From the NCBI GenBank assembly GCA_001874305.1, contig MPCU01000008.1:1-64000 (forward strand): a stretch of DNA of 64,000 nt. The letters are read 5' to 3'. The notes beneath the pieces are model-generated. The model did no database searches. It was not told the origin of the DNA and was given only the letters and a program-made list of their open reading frames with translations. A program made the translations under genes and the position numbers. Source of the DNA: Bacteriovorax sp. MedPE-SWde (GTDB lineage: Bacteria; Bdellovibrionota; Bacteriovoracia; Bacteriovoracales; Bacteriovoracaceae). Below are positions 7,719 to 28,415 of the stretch, piece by piece (positions within the stretch are counted from its first letter, which is position 1; each line of letters starts with the position of its first letter).

Positions 7719-10010
7719 ATGGAAAGATTTATAAAGTACATGGGAATCCTATTTATTGTAGGATTTTCTGTTTTAAGTGTATACCAGTCTCTTGTATTCA
7801 GGAGTCTTCCCGATTGGAGTCCAAGCAAGAAGTACTTTGCTTATTCAACTTTCTTTGAGGATCGTTTCTTCGACTTTAGAATGATGAAGACACTTGATCC
7901 TAATAAAAAAGACGAGAGACTAGTTCTCGCGGATATTGATGACTACTCTATTAAGGCACTAGGCTCATGGCCAATTCAAAGAAACCACTGGGCCTCGCTA
8001 ATTAGAAAGTTAAAGCTATATGGTGCGAAAGTTATTGCATTTGATGTTTTCTTTTCTGAAGAATCGAAAATGTGTAATGGCTTTAATCCTGATGACGACT
8101 TAGCAAAATCAATTGAAGAGTTTCATGAAATCCCAAACAATAGAGTCGTTCTTCCATATAACCTACGTGTCTATGGGACAGAGGACATTCCTCAAACTCC
8201 AGAGGATCTCTACTCATTTGCACTAACAGCAAAAACTGGTGGAGATGACTTTGAGCTCGTTTCAGCAAAGATCTCAAATGCCGTCTACCCTATTCAAAAG
8301 CTGATCGATTCAGAGGCCGCACTTGGCTATATCGAGGCAAAGGCCGATTCAGATGGAATTATGAGACACTATAAGAGTGTTGCTCATATCTACAATGATA
8401 TTTATGTTCCGTCTTATGCACTCACAACCTATCAGCATTATGTAGGAGAAATGGATGAAACAGAAGAAGATTTAAACGATCTTACTGCGGAAAGCAAGGT
8501 GTTTCAGAGTCATGTTGACCTCTCAGTTCTTGGTGAGCCTGCGCTTGTAACAGAAAAAGGAAGAGTCTATCTCAATGATCACGGTGAAACAAAAATACGT
8601 TGGTCAGGTGGAATCAATAATTTTCCCAGAGCATCTATTTACGACATTATCTCTAAAGCAGATGAAGACCCAGCAATGCATAAAATGTTCAAGAACACGA
8701 TTGTCTTCGTTGGCGCATCAGCATTTGGTGCATATGACCTAAGACATACTCCTGTAGACTCGATGCTACCAGGAGTTTACTTTCACATGAACTTCGTAAA
8801 AATGCTCTTAGATGGTACATTCTTAAAAGCATTTGCTGAGTCTGTACAATTATCATGGATTCTTCTTTTTGCATCTGTTGCAATACTTCTACTAGTTCAA
8901 CTAAAAGAAAACCCAATCCTTGATATCGCTGTAGTTCTAGCTATAGTTGGAGGGATTTACTTCTATGACACTTACTTTCTCATCCCTGCAGGTTATGAAA
9001 ACAGACTATTCTTTTGCTTCTTTGCTCTAATCGGTTGTTACTCATGGAATACATTTGTTCACTTCTATATGGCGAATAAAGATAAGGCATTCTTAAAAAA
9101 TGCATTTGGAAACTATATTTCCCCTGAACTAATATCAGACATGTACGAAACAGGAGAGCCTCCAAAACTTGGAGGAGACTGTGGATTAAGAACTGCATTC
9201 TTTACAGATATTCAAGGCTTCTCTACCTTCTCAGAGATTCTATCTGCAACACAGTTAGTTGAACTTTTAAATGAATATCTAACAGCAATGACAGATATCC
9301 TACTAGAAGAAAAAGGTACTCTTGATAAATATGAAGGTGATGCAATTATCGCTTTCTTTGGGGCTCCGATGCCACTTGAAGATCATGCAGCGAGGGCCTG
9401 TCATGTTGCTCACAGAATGCAACTCAAGCTTCTAGAGCTAAGAGAGAAGTGGATTAGCGAGGGTGATAAATGGCCAGAGATAGTTCATCAGATGAGAATG
9501 AGAATTGGTATTAACTCTGGTGATATTGTTACAGGAAATATGGGATCATCTTCGCGTATGAACTATACAATGATTGGGGACTCTGTAAACCTAGCGGCGA
9601 GACTTGAAGAGTCAGCCAAACAATATGGTATTTTTACTCAGGTTTCTAAGACAACAGTTGAGCTTACAGGAAAGCAATTTCTTTGGCGTGAACTTGATAC
9701 GATAAAAGTTGTAGGTAAATCTATTCCAGTAACTACATATGATCTTCTAAGTGAAAAAGAGAATGCTCCAGACCTACTAAATAAATTAGCAGTTCTTTTC
9801 CAAGAAGGAATAAGCTTATATAAAGAGAAAAGATGGGATGAAGCAATTACTGTTTTTACAGAAACGCTTGAACTAGAACATGAAAGATTCCCTCAACTTA
9901 AAGGAGTGAAGACAAATCCATCTGAAATTTACATTGAGAGATGTGAGGCCTTTATGGAGAACCCGCCTCCACATGATTGGGACGGAACATATACCTTAAC
10001 TTCAAAATAA
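7719..10010 (+). CDS. CHASE2-domain class III adenylate cyclase
   Basis: 763 residues. One N-terminal membrane helix (10-27), a periplasmic CHASE2 domain (about 45-365, with LADIDDYSIKALGSWPIQR and GVYFHMNFVKMLLDG), a cluster of membrane segments (about 378-450), then a class III cyclase domain (490-680). Metal-binding Asp497 (FTDIQGF) and Asp541 are present. Lys537 (LDKYEGD) and Thr617 (NYTMIGD) are the adenine-selecting pair of class IIIb enzymes, and Asn624/Arg628 (SVNLAAR) complete the site, so cAMP production is expected. A short helical tail follows (690-763). It would convert a periplasmic signal into cAMP. Confidence 0.93.
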   Translation: MERFIKYMGILFIVGFSVLSVYQSLVFRSLPDWSPSKKYFAYSTFFEDRFFDFRMMKTLDPNKKDERLVLADIDDYSIKALGSWPIQRNHWASLIRKLKLYGAKVIAFDVFFSEESKMCNGFNPDDDLAKSIEEFHEIPNNRVVLPYNLRVYGTEDIPQTPEDLYSFALTAKTGGDDFELVSAKISNAVYPIQKLIDSEAALGYIEAKADSDGIMRHYKSVAHIYNDIYVPSYALTTYQHYVGEMDETEEDLNDLTAESKVFQSHVDLSVLGEPALVTEKGRVYLNDHGETKIRWSGGINNFPRASIYDIISKADEDPAMHKMFKNTIVFVGASAFGAYDLRHTPVDSMLPGVYFHMNFVKMLLDGTFLKAFAESVQLSWILLFASVAILLLVQLKENPILDIAVVLAIVGGIYFYDTYFLIPAGYENRLFFCFFALIGCYSWNTFVHFYMANKDKAFLKNAFGNYISPELISDMYETGEPPKLGGDCGLRTAFFTDIQGFSTFSEILSATQLVELLNEYLTAMTDILLEEKGTLDKYEGDAIIAFFGAPMPLEDHAARACHVAHRMQLKLLELREKWISEGDKWPEIVHQMRMRIGINSGDIVTGNMGSSSRMNYTMIGDSVNLAARLEESAKQYGIFTQVSKTTVELTGKQFLWRELDTIKVVGKSIPVTTYDLLSEKENAPDLLNKLAVLFQEGISLYKEKRWDEAITVFTETLELEHERFPQLKGVKTNPSEIYIERCEAFMENPPPHDWDGTYTLTSK

Positions 10011-16762: not shown

Positions 16763-16796
16763 AGGGTGTGTGATCAGAAATTGGTTCACACACCCT
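16763..16796 (+). terminator. Strong hairpin after fbaA
   Basis: Perfect 11-bp stem AGGGTGTGTGA/TCACACACCCT with a 12-base loop, 12 bases after the aldolase stop. There is no U-tract (ATATAAAT follows), so it may stabilise the mRNA 3' end or terminate weakly. Confidence 0.55.
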
Positions 16797-16842: not shown

Positions 16843-17865
16843 GTGACAACGTATGTTACGCCCATGACAAATAAAAGAGATTACACACTAGTTGAAGGAC
16901 CTAACTGTCACGTTACCCGTAGACGAGAAATCCTTGCCAAGCACCCAGAAGTTAAAGACCTTACAGGTCCTTATCAATTATCTGCCGTATACATAACTCT
17001 CATAGTCCTCGGACAACTAGTTATGGCATATGCTCTAAGAGATCAAGCGTGGTGGGTTATCCTCATTGCTTCTTATGCAATTGGTGCTTTTGCAAATCAC
17101 TCACTCTACGTGATGATTCATGAGTGCACTCATAACGTCGTTTTAAAAACAGCTTTTGGAAATAAGATAATGGGACTCGTTTGTGATATTCCACTAGTTC
17201 TTCCTTCTGCAATGGGTTTTAGAAAGTATCATATGATTCATCACAAGCACCTTGGTGAGTATGCTTATGATCCAGATATTACAAGTTATACAGAATCAAG
17301 ACTTATAGGCAATTCAGCTTTCATGAAAGCGCTTTGGATTGCACTCTTTTCAGTATCTCAAGCTTTGAGACCGCTAAAAGTTCAATATTATAAGCCGCTA
17401 AATATTTGGACAGCTATAAACACTGTTCTTCAAATCATCATCAATATTGCAGTCTATGTTTATATTGGACCGATGGCATTACTCTATCTAGCTCTTTCAA
17501 CTTTATTTGCCCTAGGTCTTCACCCGCTAGGTGGAAGATGGATTCAAGAGCACTATATTACAAAAGAAGGACAAGAGACTTATTCTTACTATGGCCCACT
17601 AAATAAGCTGACTTTCAATATGGGTTATCACAATGAGCATCATGACTTTATGAATGTTGCTTGGATAAACCAACCTAAGATTAGTCAAATGGCCCCTGAG
17701 TTCTATGACTCTTTAAAGTCCTACCAGTCATGGACAAAAGTATTATGGAACTTTATTTTTAATCCAAAGATTGATTCTTTTAGTAGAATCATTCACCCTG
17801 ATCGTCACCCTAAGGCGAGAGATAAAGAGGCCAACCTATATAATAACGTTGACGCCCATTTTTAA
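16843..17865 (+). CDS. Sphingolipid delta-4-desaturase (dihydroceramide desaturase-like)
   Basis: 340-residue membrane di-iron desaturase. Three His boxes are intact: HECTH (93-97), H130xxHH (HMIHH) and HNEHHDF (263-269). Around them are features of eukaryotic DEGS/DES1 proteins: N-terminal LAKHPEVKDLTGP, LGLHPLGGRWIQEHY (225-238), TYSYYGPLN and FNMGYHNEHHDF. DES1 introduces the 4,5-trans double bond of sphingosine. Several membrane segments are visible (50-65, 70-92, 165-175, 195-225). The start is uncertain: the GTG at 16843 has no Shine-Dalgarno sequence and Met8 is possible. Together with the sphingolipid operon 5 kb away this supports true sphingolipid desaturation rather than general fatty-acid desaturation. 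Confidence 0.88.
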   Translation: MTTYVTPMTNKRDYTLVEGPNCHVTRRREILAKHPEVKDLTGPYQLSAVYITLIVLGQLVMAYALRDQAWWVILIASYAIGAFANHSLYVMIHECTHNVVLKTAFGNKIMGLVCDIPLVLPSAMGFRKYHMIHHKHLGEYAYDPDITSYTESRLIGNSAFMKALWIALFSVSQALRPLKVQYYKPLNIWTAINTVLQIIINIAVYVYIGPMALLYLALSTLFALGLHPLGGRWIQEHYITKEGQETYSYYGPLNKLTFNMGYHNEHHDFMNVAWINQPKISQMAPEFYDSLKSYQSWTKVLWNFIFNPKIDSFSRIIHPDRHPKARDKEANLYNNVDAHF

Positions 17866-17867
17866 AA

Positions 17868-17889
17868 AAAGCTCCGATATGGAGCTTTT
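17868..17889. terminator. Bidirectional terminator
   Basis: AAAGCTCC, loop GATAT, GGAGCTTT with a T-run on both strands. It separates the convergent desaturase and DUF1499 genes. Confidence 0.85.
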
Positions 17890-22922: not shown

Positions 22923-24131
22923 ATGGCCATTGAATTCACAGGCGCTGGTAAGAGAATCATAGAAAAAGCCCAAATGCTTAAAGACAATAACCTCTACCCT
23001 TTCTTCAAAGCAATTGAAGATTCGGAAGGAACAGTTGTTAAAGTTGATGGAAGAGATCAAATTATGGTTGGTTCTAACAACTACCTTGGTCTTACTCACC
23101 ACCCACATGTGAAAGAAGCTGCTATAAAAGCGATCGAAAAATATGGAACAGGTTGTACTGGTTCAAGGTTTCTCAATGGAAACTTAAATATCCATGAAGA
23201 ACTTGAAGAAAAGCTAGCAAATTATCTTGGTCATGAGTCTGCAATAGTTTTCTCAACAGGAATGCAAACTAACCTTGGTGCACTATCAGCAATCTGTGGT
23301 CCAAAAGACTGTATGCTTTTTGATTCAGAAAACCATGCATCTCTAATTGATGCTTCAAGACTAGCTCTTGGAGCAACATTTAAATTCAAGCACAATGATA
23401 TGGAATCGCTAGAAGAGCAAATCGTATCTAATATAAATAGATTTCAAAAAGTTATTATAGTTGTTGATGGAGTATTCTCAATGACTGGTGATATCGCTAA
23501 TCTTCCAAAGATTACTGAGCTAGCACAAAAGTATGGCGCTCATGTTTACGTTGATGATGCCCATGGTATCGGAGTTATGGGAGAGAAAGGAAGAGGAACA
23601 ATGCACCACTTTGGATTAGCTGATAAAGTTGATCTGAATATGGGAACATTTTCTAAATCTTTTGCCTGTATTGGTGGAGTGCTTTCAGGAACTAAGGAAT
23701 CAATTAATTATATCAAGCACGTTGCGAGATCATTTATGTTCTCTGCATCTATGCCACCATCTGCTGTTGCAACAGTAATGGCATGTCTTGATGTTATAAA
23801 CGAAGACAATGACCTTCATGATAGACTTTGGAGAAATGTTGAGTTTATGAGAAATGGATTCAAAGAAATTGGTTTCTACACATATAACTCTCAAACACCT
23901 ATCCTACCAATCTTTATTGGTGACGATATAAAGTCAATGCAAGTAACAAGCTTCTTAGCTGACAAAGGTGTTTTTGCAACTCCAGTTGTTCCACCTGCGG
24001 TACCTAAGGGTGAAGCACTAATCAGAACAAGCTATATGGCCTCTCACAATATTGAAGAGTTAACAAAAGTTCTTGACGTATTTGCTATGGCCAAGAAAGA
24101 ATTTGATATCCCTTCACATATTGGAGAATAA
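22923..24131 (+). CDS. spt: Serine palmitoyltransferase (alpha-oxoamine synthase)
   Basis: 402-residue PLP enzyme predicted to condense serine with an acyl thioester to 3-ketosphinganine, the first step of sphingolipid synthesis. Seen: SNNYLGL, the fold-type I segment FSTGMQTNLGALSA, ring-stacking His138 (SENHAS), DDAHGIGVMG (Asp211/212, His214), PLP-lysine Lys245 in GTFSKSF, and a C-terminal PPAVPKGEALIR. BioF and glycine acetyltransferase share this fold, but the co-operon ceramide synthase and reductase homologues make SPT the best call. No biotin or threonine genes are nearby. Translation of the next gene starts 2 bases after its stop. Confidence 0.92.
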   Translation: MAIEFTGAGKRIIEKAQMLKDNNLYPFFKAIEDSEGTVVKVDGRDQIMVGSNNYLGLTHHPHVKEAAIKAIEKYGTGCTGSRFLNGNLNIHEELEEKLANYLGHESAIVFSTGMQTNLGALSAICGPKDCMLFDSENHASLIDASRLALGATFKFKHNDMESLEEQIVSNINRFQKVIIVVDGVFSMTGDIANLPKITELAQKYGAHVYVDDAHGIGVMGEKGRGTMHHFGLADKVDLNMGTFSKSFACIGGVLSGTKESINYIKHVARSFMFSASMPPSAVATVMACLDVINEDNDLHDRLWRNVEFMRNGFKEIGFYTYNSQTPILPIFIGDDIKSMQVTSFLADKGVFATPVVPPAVPKGEALIRTSYMASHNIEELTKVLDVFAMAKKEFDIPSHIGE

Positions 24132-24132
24132 G

Positions 24133-25260
24133 ATGTCGATAGTAATCGAAAAAGTTAATCTGCTTGAAAGTAAGAAAGATAGAAAGAGATTCATCAACCT
24201 AGCATGGACTCTGTATAAGAATGATCCTTCATGGGTTCCTCATTTAAAAATGGAAATCGAGAAACTCTTTAATAAGAATCACCCTTTCTATGCAACTGCA
24301 GATGTGGCCTTTTGGATTGCAACTAAAGACGGTAAAGACGTTGGCCGTATCATGGCAATCGTTAATCATAACTTTATTAAATTTCATGACGAACAAACTG
24401 GTCATTATGGCTTCTTCGAAGCTCATGATGATCCAACGACATTTAAAGCACTATTTAATATTGCTGAAGAGTGGCTAAAGTCTCAAGGAATGAATAAGAT
24501 GCAAGGGCCTTTCAACCCTTCAACTAACTACGAGTGTGGAAACCTTGTACTTGGTCATGGTGAAAGACCAGTCATGATGATGCCTTATAATCCAGAATTT
24601 TATCAAACACATATTGAAGGTCTAGGTTTTGAAAAGGCCAAAGATCTTGTAGCTTACCACCTCGATTCTAAATTTGAGATGCCTGAGATTATTCAAAAAA
24701 TTTCAGCAAGAGCAGAAAGTAAGAATAATATTACATATAGAACAATTAGTAAGAAAAATTGGATGAAGGAAGTAGATTTGATGTATGAAATCTACAATGA
24801 TGCCTGGGAACATAACTGGGGCTTTATTCCAATGACTAAGGACGAGTTCTATGGAACTGCTGGTGATCTTAAAATGGTTGCTGATGAAAGGCTTATTCTC
24901 TTCGCACTAGTTGACGGAAAGGAAGTTGGATTCATCGTTGCACTTCCAGATCTTAATCAAGTATTTCAACAAATCCCAAGTGGAAAACTTCTTCCTACAG
25001 GAATCTTTAAATTCCTCAATGCGAAGAAATATATGACAGGTGTAAGGGTTCTTACAATGGGTGTTAAGCAGGAGTATCGTAAGTACGGACTTGCTTCTAT
25101 CCTCTATCAAAGATGTCATCAAAATATCCTTAAGTACCCTAAGTATGAAACTATTGAAATGAGTTGGATTCTTGAAGATAACCTCAACATGAATAAGCCA
25201 CTTCTTAGAATGAATGCTAAACCGTATAGAAAATATCGTATATTTGAAAAAGGGATCTAA
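24133..25260 (+). CDS. GNAT-type bacterial ceramide synthase candidate (bCerS)
   Basis: 375 residues. GGAG (24123-24126) inside the end of spt is 6 bases before this ATG, so I start here rather than at earlier in-frame codons. The protein has no membrane helix. Its C-terminal half shows a GNAT fold (VRVLTMGVKQEYRKYGLASILY, the acyl-CoA pyrophosphate loop region), preceded by an N-terminal segment with NDPSWVPHLKMEIEKLFNK and MQGPFNPSTNYECG. This family, next to SPT, contains the ceramide synthase described in Caulobacter, which N-acylates the sphingoid base and is unrelated to eukaryotic CerS. Function is inferred from family and operon position. Confidence 0.82.
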   Translation: MSIVIEKVNLLESKKDRKRFINLAWTLYKNDPSWVPHLKMEIEKLFNKNHPFYATADVAFWIATKDGKDVGRIMAIVNHNFIKFHDEQTGHYGFFEAHDDPTTFKALFNIAEEWLKSQGMNKMQGPFNPSTNYECGNLVLGHGERPVMMMPYNPEFYQTHIEGLGFEKAKDLVAYHLDSKFEMPEIIQKISARAESKNNITYRTISKKNWMKEVDLMYEIYNDAWEHNWGFIPMTKDEFYGTAGDLKMVADERLILFALVDGKEVGFIVALPDLNQVFQQIPSGKLLPTGIFKFLNAKKYMTGVRVLTMGVKQEYRKYGLASILYQRCHQNILKYPKYETIEMSWILEDNLNMNKPLLRMNAKPYRKYRIFEKGI

Positions 25261-26237
25261 TGAAAATTCTCGTAACTGGTGCGACAGGTTTTGTAGGTTC
25301 ACACTTAACTGACAAATTAGTAGCTGACGGTCACGAGATATTCTCTCTCATTAGAAGTGAGACAAAGGCCAAGAGCTTTAATACTAAAGGGCAATATGTA
25401 ATTGGCTCACTTTCCTCTAAGGAAAAACTATCTTGGATAAATGAGCTCCCAGAAGATCTCGACGCTGTTATTCATACAGCAGGAATTGTTCATGCTAGCG
25501 ATATAAAAGTTTTTGAAGAAATTAATTTCTTAGCGACTAAGAATCTGACAGAACAACTTTCAAATAAATACAATAAGCTACATTTTACATTCATCTCATC
25601 TCTTGCGGCCGGAGGACCAAGCTCCCCCTCAAAAATGAGAACAGAGAAAATGCAAGACTCACCAGTTAGTGCTTACGGTGTGTCAAAGAAAGTAACTGAA
25701 GAGTATTTCTCAAAAGAGCTACCAACTAATTGGACATATAATTGTATCAGACCTCCAATGGTAATTGGTCCTAGAGATCCGGCCGTTCTTGACGTCTTCA
25801 AGATGGTTAAATCAGGATTAATTGTTGGGCCTGGCCTTGATTTTAAGACTAAGGAATATAGTTTTGTTTGTGTTCATGACCTAGTTGACGCAATTATATT
25901 ACTCGCTACTAAGAAGTCTTCTGGCACGTACTATGTCGGTCATGATGAAGTCATTACCTTTGAAAAACTCATTAAGACTATTCAAGTTGAATTAAATAAG
26001 AAGTTGGTTTTTAACCTTCCTATTCCTACTCCACTATTAAGTGTCGCTGCAAATGTTGTGGCATTACTACCAATCCCTAATAGACTTACAAAAGACAAAG
26101 TTAACGAGTTAGTTCAAACTGCATGGTCATGTGACAATGAACTACTTAAATCGAATCTAGGTTTCTTACCTAAGTGGGACATTCAAAAAACGGTAGCACT
26201 TACAGCGAAAGACTACCGTGAAAGAAAGTGGTTATAA
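25260..26237 (+). CDS. cerR: Extended SDR, predicted 3-ketosphinganine/ceramide reductase (CerR)
   Basis: 325-residue NAD(P)-dependent epimerase/dehydratase-family protein. Rossmann motif GATGFVG (7-13), Ser113/114 and catalytic Tyr139-xxx-Lys143 (SAYGVSKK), plus IRPPMVIGPRDP. The ATG shares its first base with the TAA of the previous gene (TAATG), a sign of translational coupling. In Caulobacter and Bacteroides an extended SDR in this context reduces the 3-keto group. It converges on the PAP2 gene with 13 bases between stops. By sequence alone it could be another sugar epimerase; the operon is what points to CerR. Confidence 0.82.
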   Translation: MKILVTGATGFVGSHLTDKLVADGHEIFSLIRSETKAKSFNTKGQYVIGSLSSKEKLSWINELPEDLDAVIHTAGIVHASDIKVFEEINFLATKNLTEQLSNKYNKLHFTFISSLAAGGPSSPSKMRTEKMQDSPVSAYGVSKKVTEEYFSKELPTNWTYNCIRPPMVIGPRDPAVLDVFKMVKSGLIVGPGLDFKTKEYSFVCVHDLVDAIILLATKKSSGTYYVGHDEVITFEKLIKTIQVELNKKLVFNLPIPTPLLSVAANVVALLPIPNRLTKDKVNELVQTAWSCDNELLKSNLGFLPKWDIQKTVALTAKDYRERKWL

Positions 26238-26250
26238 CTCTTAGAACTTA

Positions 26251-27036
26251 TTAAAACCTATAAGAAAAAGCTGGCCCGATAACTCCCTTATACTGAATAT
26301 AAGAAAGCTCTAACTGACGCTCAAAGATCATTTTATATAGAGGATGATTTGTTTTATTCTTAGCGATTGCCCTAACACCCTCAGATGCAAATGCAGATAA
26401 CCAAAATGACCCAACAACGTCAGATACATAGTGTCGTCCCTCTCTCACTCTTTGCATTGCAGAAAAGTAAGTTAGAACTCCAGGTATAGTTGCCCAATAC
26501 GGACCATAGTATTGAAGAGTTTTAAAGAAGAGCACACTATAAGGTACGATATGACCACTTGGAAAAGAATTATCTCCTCTAAATCTAGTCTCCCACATAC
26601 TTTGGCCTTCAGTATTTGGTCTAGAGTGACCAGGAATATAACTGATAATACCTGTCTCTATAAGAGTTAAATACATTGCCGCTGTATACTCTTTAGCAAA
26701 CTCAACAGTCTTATTATTAGCTTTCTTCTTTCCTGTGTAATAAAGAGCTAGGGGAACAACTGGAAAACTAAAGACAACTCCCATATCTCCTGTGATATCG
26801 TATATCTTTCTAAGCTTCTTAGATCTTTCATTTCCACTTAATCTCTGATCTTCTTCAAAGCTATAGTAAGTAGTTGCAACGGCAGGAACGGCATAGAATA
26901 AATTATTTACTTCTTTAAACTGCTGAATAGATCCTTTATAGAAGTATTCAAATGTTTCTGCGAGATCTTGTTTAGGTGTATTTTCTGCTCTTACAAATGA
27001 AGAGATTAACAGTAGTAAAACTGATATTTTAAGCAT
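26251..27036 (-). CDS. Periplasmic PAP2-family lipid phosphatase
   Basis: 261 residues with a signal peptide (ISVLLLLISSFVRA). The phosphatase motifs are GHSRPN (Arg139-Pro140), SFPSGH (Ser160-Gly-His162) and RxxxGRHYVSD with His202 and Asp206, the nucleophile. The family removes phosphate from phosphatidate, undecaprenyl pyrophosphate, or sphingoid/ceramide phosphates. Its start overlaps the last base of the FA2H-like gene, so the two form an operon, which together with the opposite sphingolipid operon suggests action on a sphingolipid phosphate. C-terminal Phe and beta-like end (VIGPAFSYRF) are curious for a PAP2 protein and could indicate an outer-membrane link. Confidence 0.85.
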   Translation of the reverse strand: MLKISVLLLLISSFVRAENTPKQDLAETFEYFYKGSIQQFKEVNNLFYAVPAVATTYYSFEEDQRLSGNERSKKLRKIYDITGDMGVVFSFPVVPLALYYTGKKKANNKTVEFAKEYTAAMYLTLIETGIISYIPGHSRPNTEGQSMWETRFRGDNSFPSGHIVPYSVLFFKTLQYYGPYWATIPGVLTYFSAMQRVREGRHYVSDVVGSFWLSAFASEGVRAIAKNKTNHPLYKMIFERQLELSYIQYKGVIGPAFSYRF

Positions 27037-27644
27037 TAATCTTCCTTAGGTCCTGTCACTGTTCTAAAAATATAGTCCCACAGAGGAGAGCTAACTCCAT
27101 ACTTAGCTTTCTCATGTCTAAAGTGGTGTTGAAGGTGAAACTTCTTCAAATACCTTCCAACTTTAGAAGTCATCTTAAAGTGATGAGTTGCATAGTGGAT
27201 ATAGTCATAACAAAGGTAGCCCACGATAAAGAATGCCATAAAAACAAAGATAAACTTCTCAGGAACTAGTAATGAAAAGAATCCATATAAAAGAGCAACG
27301 ATTAGAATTGCTGGAACTGGTGGCATTACAAGTCTAGTTGGGTCATCTGGATCATCGTGATGAAGTCCGTGAAAGAGAAATACGAATCTTTCAGTTAATG
27401 GCCCGATAGTTGGCATATGAAAAACAAAGCGGTGTAAGATATATTCAGTGAATGTCCAAACAACTAAACCAATAACAGCAAATAGACCGCACTCTGCTAG
27501 AGTTATTCCATAGTCTACAAAAGACTTGTATAACCAGTAGCATACAACAGGCACCCAAAGTAGTAATGGTACTACAGGATGAACGTGTGTTAGTGATTCA
27601 AGGAATGGATTTTTAAAAATTCTTATCGACTTATATTCTTTCAT
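27036..27644 (-). CDS. FA2H/Scs7-like sphingolipid fatty-acid 2-hydroxylase
   Basis: 202-residue integral membrane di-iron hydroxylase (FA_hydroxylase superfamily). The His clusters are all present: EYILHRFVFH (His71, His76), HGLHHDDPDDPTRLVMPP (92-109), DYIHYATHH (150-155) and KFHLQHH (170-174), ending KYGVSSPLWDYIF. The RLVMPP and GVSSPLWD segments are what mark FA2H/Scs7, which hydroxylate the N-acyl chain of ceramide at C2. The cytochrome b5 domain of the eukaryotic enzymes is absent. Membrane segments at about 25-40, 50-68, 110-128, 130-147. A longer frame starts 19 codons upstream but lacks a ribosome site; AAGG lies 10 bases before the ATG used here. Confidence 0.86.
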   Translation of the reverse strand: MKEYKSIRIFKNPFLESLTHVHPVVPLLLWVPVVCYWLYKSFVDYGITLAECGLFAVIGLVVWTFTEYILHRFVFHMPTIGPLTERFVFLFHGLHHDDPDDPTRLVMPPVPAILIVALLYGFFSLLVPEKFIFVFMAFFIVGYLCYDYIHYATHHFKMTSKVGRYLKKFHLQHHFRHEKAKYGVSSPLWDYIFRTVTGPKED

Positions 27645-27740
27645 ATTTTTTCTACCTTTGACGCAATCTAATAGAAAAAATATATCTTGTAAATGAGACA
27701 ATTAATAAGTTAAGTTCCTTTAATAATTATGGGATATATC

Positions 27741-28415
27741 ATGAAAATATTATTCATTCTCTTATTTACAACGCTTAGCGTTCAAGCTTCGCCATATCCA
27801 GAACTTAGCAAATCTGAAGTGTCCAAGCTTGAAAATGGTGAATACATACTTGTAACAAAGAGTGTCAAAGATAGGCCATGGCCAGTCGTTATTTTCTACA
27901 AACTCATAGAAGCATCTAGTCTTGAGTCTGTAGCAGTCTTCTATGCCCTAGAGCACCAATCAAATTATATCCCTAACCTATTAAAGTCCAAAGTCGTAGG
28001 ACAACGTGTGGCCACAGAGGCCGACGTAAGATACGAGTTAAAGATGCCCTGGCCACTAAGTAATGGAGACTATATCCATGGCCATAAACTTAGCTATAAG
28101 AAGCAAGAGAGCTATAAAGTAAATTGGTGGTTGGTAAAATCGAATACTGCCAAGGAAGTAAAGGGTTCTGCAATATTCTCGAATTATAAGGGCAACACTC
28201 TACTTAAGTACGAGTCCCTCGTTGTGCCTCAGTCATTTCTAGCATCTTTTGTAGAAGGAAAAATGTTGGAAGACGTAAAATCATCACTAGTCGCCATCAG
28301 AAAAGAGATACTTCGTATAAAAAATGATGATAAATCTATGATGAAAGAGCTTGCTGATAAAATTCATCAAACACTCAACGGTAAGTTTATATATTTTCCC
28401 AAAAAAAATAACTAA
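27741..28415 (+). CDS. Secreted START/SRPBCC-like protein
   Basis: 224 residues. I start at the ATG with GGGA 6 bases before it, giving MKILFILLFTTLSVQA as signal peptide. The mature part (DRPWPVVIFYKLIEASSLESVAVF, then MPWPLSNGDYIHGHKLSY, and a long C-terminal helix) is consistent with the START-like helix-grip fold that binds lipids or other hydrophobic ligands. It is transcribed away from the hydroxylase gene, 97 bases from its start. A role as periplasmic carrier of a sphingolipid or its precursor is only a guess from position. Confidence 0.55.
   Translation: MKILFILLFTTLSVQASPYPELSKSEVSKLENGEYILVTKSVKDRPWPVVIFYKLIEASSLESVAVFYALEHQSNYIPNLLKSKVVGQRVATEADVRYELKMPWPLSNGDYIHGHKLSYKKQESYKVNWWLVKSNTAKEVKGSAIFSNYKGNTLLKYESLVVPQSFLASFVEGKMLEDVKSSLVAIRKEILRIKNDDKSMMKELADKIHQTLNGKFIYFPKKNN

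Follow-up and report, generated by a model that had tools for sequence, protein, structure and literature searches.

The question raised by this locus is whether a bacterium puts the 4,5 double bond of sphingosine into its own ceramides, and whether the enzyme that would do so was taken from a eukaryote. The gene, here called des and annotated as a putative dihydroceramide delta-4-desaturase, lies at positions 16843..17865 on the + strand of the window, i.e., the whole 64,000-nt stretch of Bacteriovorax sp. MedPE-SWde that was analysed. It is an intact open frame encoding a predicted membrane desaturase of 340 aa when read from GTG, with the opposite strand of the stretch carrying many stops; an in-frame ATG at 16864 (333 aa) is the likelier start, and the homologues L002 and L003 start near there. 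A Pfam profile search identified the FA_desaturase domain (PF00487, E=2.9e-27) and, at the N-terminus (16876..16971, +), the Lipid_DES domain (PF08557; 37.2-40.9 bits, 1.9e-9, against a curated cut-off of 23), matches far stronger than chance would give; Lipid_DES represents an already known family whose model also recognises predicted bacterial members. Lipid_DES has a single match in the 3.76-Mb window genome, namely des, and none in 14 control genomes, whereas FA_desaturase has nine matches in the window genome (des among them), which sets des apart within a larger group of desaturases.

The motifs follow the same pattern. Three His boxes, HECTH (residues 93-97, 17119..17133), HMIHH (residues 130-134, 17230..17244) and HNEHH (residues 263-267, 17629..17643), all on the + strand, are accompanied by a stretch that motif and conservation mark as DES-typical, HPLGGRWIQEHY (residues 227-238) followed by TYSYYGPLN (246-254; together 17521..17604, +), by LTGP at residues 40-43 and by HNEHHDF from residue 263, so that the DES1-type motifs and His boxes named in the original prediction are all present. 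An AlphaFold2 model of the protein (mean pLDDT 88) gave weak matches to solved structures, and its predicted fold resembled, among others, that of the alkane monooxygenase AlkB (TM 0.5). A sequence search of the PDB yielded no DES, and the bacterial enzymes may be more tractable homologues for structural work.

Eukaryotic DES1/DEGS1 has, like des, PF08557 and PF00487 in the same order and the same His boxes. The comparison was extended to four eukaryotic DES (human DEGS1, human DEGS2, fly DES and Arabidopsis DES), each represented by a provisional sequence, which match Lipid_DES over nearly the whole domain length at 69-78 bits (37 in des); these scores support the provisional sequences at the N-terminus only, so that the figures resting on them are approximate. 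On this basis, des aligns with human DEGS1 over 320 residues, nearly the full protein, at approximately 40% identity (E 2e-79). Its identity to the provisional eukaryotic DES is 36-39%, versus the 20-24% that it shares with other desaturases encoded in the same genome. Among 63 bacterial copies, 49 columns are conserved at 95% or more, 42 of which are identical in the four provisional eukaryotic DES, and 13 of these shared columns are not seen in three further desaturases encoded by the window genome. The residues H23, R26, H227-P228, E245, Y249, G251 and D268 combine all three properties, i.e., conservation of at least 95% in the bacterial copies, identity in the four provisional eukaryotic sequences and absence from the three same-genome desaturases. 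Together with the Lipid_DES N-terminus they are better family markers than LTGP, which had been offered as DES1-specific but is not diagnostic, since just its L and G are invariant. In the tree, as by identity, des groups with the eukaryotic DES and away from the general desaturases, a placement made with provisional sequences and saturated outgroup branches. Membership of des in the sphingolipid delta-4-desaturase (DES1) family is supported over a place among the general acyl-lipid desaturases. The differences from DES1/DEGS1 are that des sits in a bacterial clade of its own, has HPLGGRWIQEHY where DES1/DEGS1 has HPISGHFIAEHY, lies near a bacterial-type SPT-GNAT-SDR pathway, and has a function that is predicted from sequence.

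The surroundings of des point to a possible substrate. The gene stands singly between a perfect 11-bp inverted repeat (16763..16796, read from the sequence), which separates it from fba and may form the end of the fba transcript, and a terminator-like hairpin directly 3′ of it (17867..17889, +), for which the evidence is weak, as the consensus scan found two in the region where 1.3 were expected. Five kb downstream of des lies a cluster that begins with a serine palmitoyltransferase (SPT; 22923..24131, +), whose best NCBIfam family is NF047600 (502.6 bits, below the cut-off of 640) and whose nearest solved structures are those of Sphingobacterium SPT (8guh/3a2b, 1e-115). It is followed by a GNAT acyltransferase that is a candidate bacterial ceramide synthase (24133..25260, +; PF00583), an SDR/epimerase that is a candidate CerR-like 3-keto reductase (25260..26237, +; PF01370), a PAP2-family phosphatase (26251..27036, −; PF01569) and a Scs7/FA2H-like hydroxylase (27036..27701, −; PF04116), a candidate ceramide fatty acid 2-hydroxylase. 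The sole solved-structure matches of the latter are to yeast SCS7 (4zr1/4zr0, 6.5e-30), from which, as from FA2H, it differs in having no cytochrome b5 domain and in that its activity is putative; it is a second eukaryote-like, putative ceramide-modifying enzyme of the same sphingolipid region. The bacterial ceramide pathway of Caulobacter consists of SPT, CerS and CerR (PMC11324152), and the window resembles it in clustering an SPT with an acyltransferase and a dehydrogenase-type reductase; it differs in adding DES and the Scs7-like hydroxylase, and its GNAT and SDR are placed as candidate ceramide pathway genes by Pfam and position only.

The gene order of the window is kept within the genus in L008, and also in L014 up to the end of its contig. 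GNAT adjoins SPT in both and in L110, and the SDR lies downstream of SPT-GNAT in L008 and L014. L110, which belongs to a different genus of the same family, has SPT, GNAT, a Scs7-like gene and DES inside 4 kb, and in L004 a GNAT (52% identical to that of the window) is followed by a CDP-alcohol phosphotransferase and then by DES. In most other relatives, DES is located away from SPT. The two genes were also followed across 129 genomes of the window's order, where Lipid_DES occurs in 41 and SPT in 67. SPT is present in 37 of the 41 genomes with Lipid_DES versus 30 of the 88 without it (Fisher 1e-9), and by genus in 18 of 20 versus 12 of 28 (1e-3), in tests that count genomes or genera singly and do not fully correct for kinship within or above genera. 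The four DES carriers of the order in which no SPT was found have genome completeness of 84-90%, and the same-genus species G048 and G050, which have SPT and lack DES, provide a natural contrast. Neighbourhood, co-occurrence with SPT and the L110 cluster all bear out the link between des and sphingolipid genes that had been proposed, and they support the view that DES is tied to sphingolipid synthesis.

With its His boxes, its family-specific N-terminus, its co-occurrence with SPT and its position near or next to SPT and GNAT in two lineages, des is, with good confidence, to be read as a dihydroceramide delta-4-desaturase that acts after SPT and comes from an old bacterial family, not as a recent eukaryotic gift. 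SPT would condense serine with a fatty acyl group, and N-acylation by the GNAT and reduction of the 3-keto group by the SDR, in either order, would yield dihydroceramide. The predicted membrane di-iron enzyme des, using O2 and an electron donor, would then form a 4,5-unsaturated ceramide by abstracting a hydrogen from C4 and another from C5 of the long-chain base, and the Scs7-like neighbour may hydroxylate the N-acyl chain. If des has this activity, the host would make 4,5-unsaturated sphingoid bases. Since a ceramide-desaturase-like gene is found close to other sphingolipid-making genes, the bacteria that carry des probably make sphingosine-type lipids of the kind usually credited to eukaryotes. 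The literature searched, which lacked most subscription papers, yielded no characterised bacterial dihydroceramide desaturase, and this is weak evidence. Bacteriovorax stolpii, a predator often grouped with the window's family, has a characterised SPT and abundant sphingolipids, with sphingophosphonolipids among them (PMC6148460, PMC5648825). No match to PEP mutase (PF13714) was found in the window genome (99.7% complete), and so a phosphonate head group like that of B. stolpii is not indicated for the window host.

The main functional rival is C4-hydroxylation of the DES2 type, in which the enzyme would act at C4 of dihydroceramide and mainly insert a hydroxyl, leading to a saturated phytosphingosine-type product or to a mixture. 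DEGS2, a close paralogue of DEGS1 and, like des, a member of the same family with the same domains, performs both desaturation and C4-hydroxylation (PMC10140171). Sequence alone does not split the two activities here, and the provisional DEGS1 and DEGS2 sequences cluster with each other in the tree. The third His box of des is nevertheless HNEHH, as in the provisional DEGS1 sequence, and not HVEHH, as in that of DEGS2, although this difference is not known to govern which reaction takes place. The cluster, moreover, already contains a separate hydroxylase, though one that is closer to the acyl-chain hydroxylase Scs7. On balance, a predominantly hydroxylating des is considered unlikely.

A second alternative, that the DES fold was re-used on another lipid, such as a fatty acyl chain or a serine- or cysteate-derived base (e.g., capnine), draws on the carriers outside the window's order. 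Of 18 distant DES carriers, 10 have an SPT with 43% identity or more and the other 8 have none at that level. In Bacteroidota, DES occurs in 8 of 17 strict-SPT genomes versus 32 of 378 others (7e-5), where strict means a match to NF047600 above its cut-off, and the majority of the Bacteroidota DES carriers have no strict SPT, which makes the substrate of DES less sure in this phylum. Below the cut-off, 298 of 395 Bacteroidota genomes match NF047600 at E<=1e-120, many of these matches probably being KBL/BioF; the model does not discriminate there, and only the 17 genomes above the cut-off were therefore used. Against a different substrate for des itself stand the company that DES keeps with SPT in the window's order, its place in the SPT cluster of L110 and the low identity of the same-genome desaturase paralogues (just 20-24%), and this alternative is judged to be quite improbable, dihydroceramide being the substrate that we favour.

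The origin of des was addressed through its distribution. Thirty relatives, mostly full length and with identity down to 35%, were found in GTDB contigs; Lipid_DES is present in 59 of 369 Bdellovibrionota genomes and in 40 of 395 sampled Bacteroidota genomes (the phylum of L026), and relatives also occur in single MAGs that are assigned to Nitrospinota, Myxococcota and Pseudomonadota. In a tree of 70 rows, and again in a second tree, the window des falls inside an all-bacterial clade. The four eukaryotic DES form one group (98/86) within a clade of 12 rows (100/98) that also holds the bacterial L040, L083-L085, L026-L028 and L106; in a tree without the outgroup, the same 12 rows make up one side of a branch (100/98). 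The outgroup branches of the rooted tree are saturated, so that its root is weak. With the window clade all-bacterial and the family broad, des is no recent eukaryotic import, and the data suggest that it descends from an old bacterial family. Of the two origins that the original prediction had entertained, ancient shared ancestry fits; that the window's lineage acquired the gene recently from a eukaryote is very hard to credit, as the high similarity of des to DES1, and the even greater closeness of the bacterial L040 and L083-L085 to eukaryotes, are set against an all-bacterial clade in both trees, a copy in 41 of the 129 genomes of the order, a GC content equal to that of the surroundings and synteny kept in the genus.

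For the branch shared by eukaryotes and bacteria, a bacterial source is more parsimonious, since the tree is mostly bacterial and the sampled eukaryotes (only four) form a single twig of it. A recent review (2026) dates DEGS1 to early eukaryotes (PMC12993136). It can be proposed tentatively, at a little less than even confidence, that delta-4-desaturation arose in bacteria, that Bacteroidota and Bdellovibrionota, which would make sphingosine-type ceramides today, were the groups in which the Lipid_DES family diversified, and that eukaryotic DES1 came from one bacterial branch. A mobile or viral origin of des was also considered and rejected, as no relative was found among plasmids, phages and IMG/VR contigs; by fold, its viral matches were general desaturases from giant viruses, with 12-14% identity.

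These findings are of interest because the bacterial DES family is broad and, in one order, linked to SPT, which predicts unsaturated sphingolipids in environmental bacteria and makes a bacterial origin of the sphingosine double bond testable. They also caution against taking sphingosine-type bases from environmental samples as necessarily eukaryotic.

Several smaller observations were made around the DES genes. Beside the hydroxylase of the window, 27729-28415 (+) encodes a probably secreted protein of 228 aa that looked START-like by eye, an identity that was dropped as it has no Pfam match and no family support. In a Nitrospinaceae MAG (L020), a protein encoded at 8029-8706, 1.3 kb from DES, has a weak START match just below the cut-off; a second, different FA_desaturase is located immediately upstream of DES (8994-9902), and an FA_hydroxylase about 1 kb downstream. 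Proteins that are related to each other and have no Pfam match are encoded closely 3′ of DES in two genera (L113:15699-16412 and L128:11672-12412), in both cases accompanied by a hydrolase-like gene. The desaturase of Bacteriovorax sp. DB6_IX (L014:446-1473) aligns piecewise in different frames, by a draft-assembly error or because the gene is broken. Finally, L040/L112 (genome G120, of the window's family) encode a much more eukaryote-like DES with 70 bits on Lipid_DES and 48% identity to the provisional human DEGS1 sequence, which is placed as sister to the eukaryotic group with modest support.
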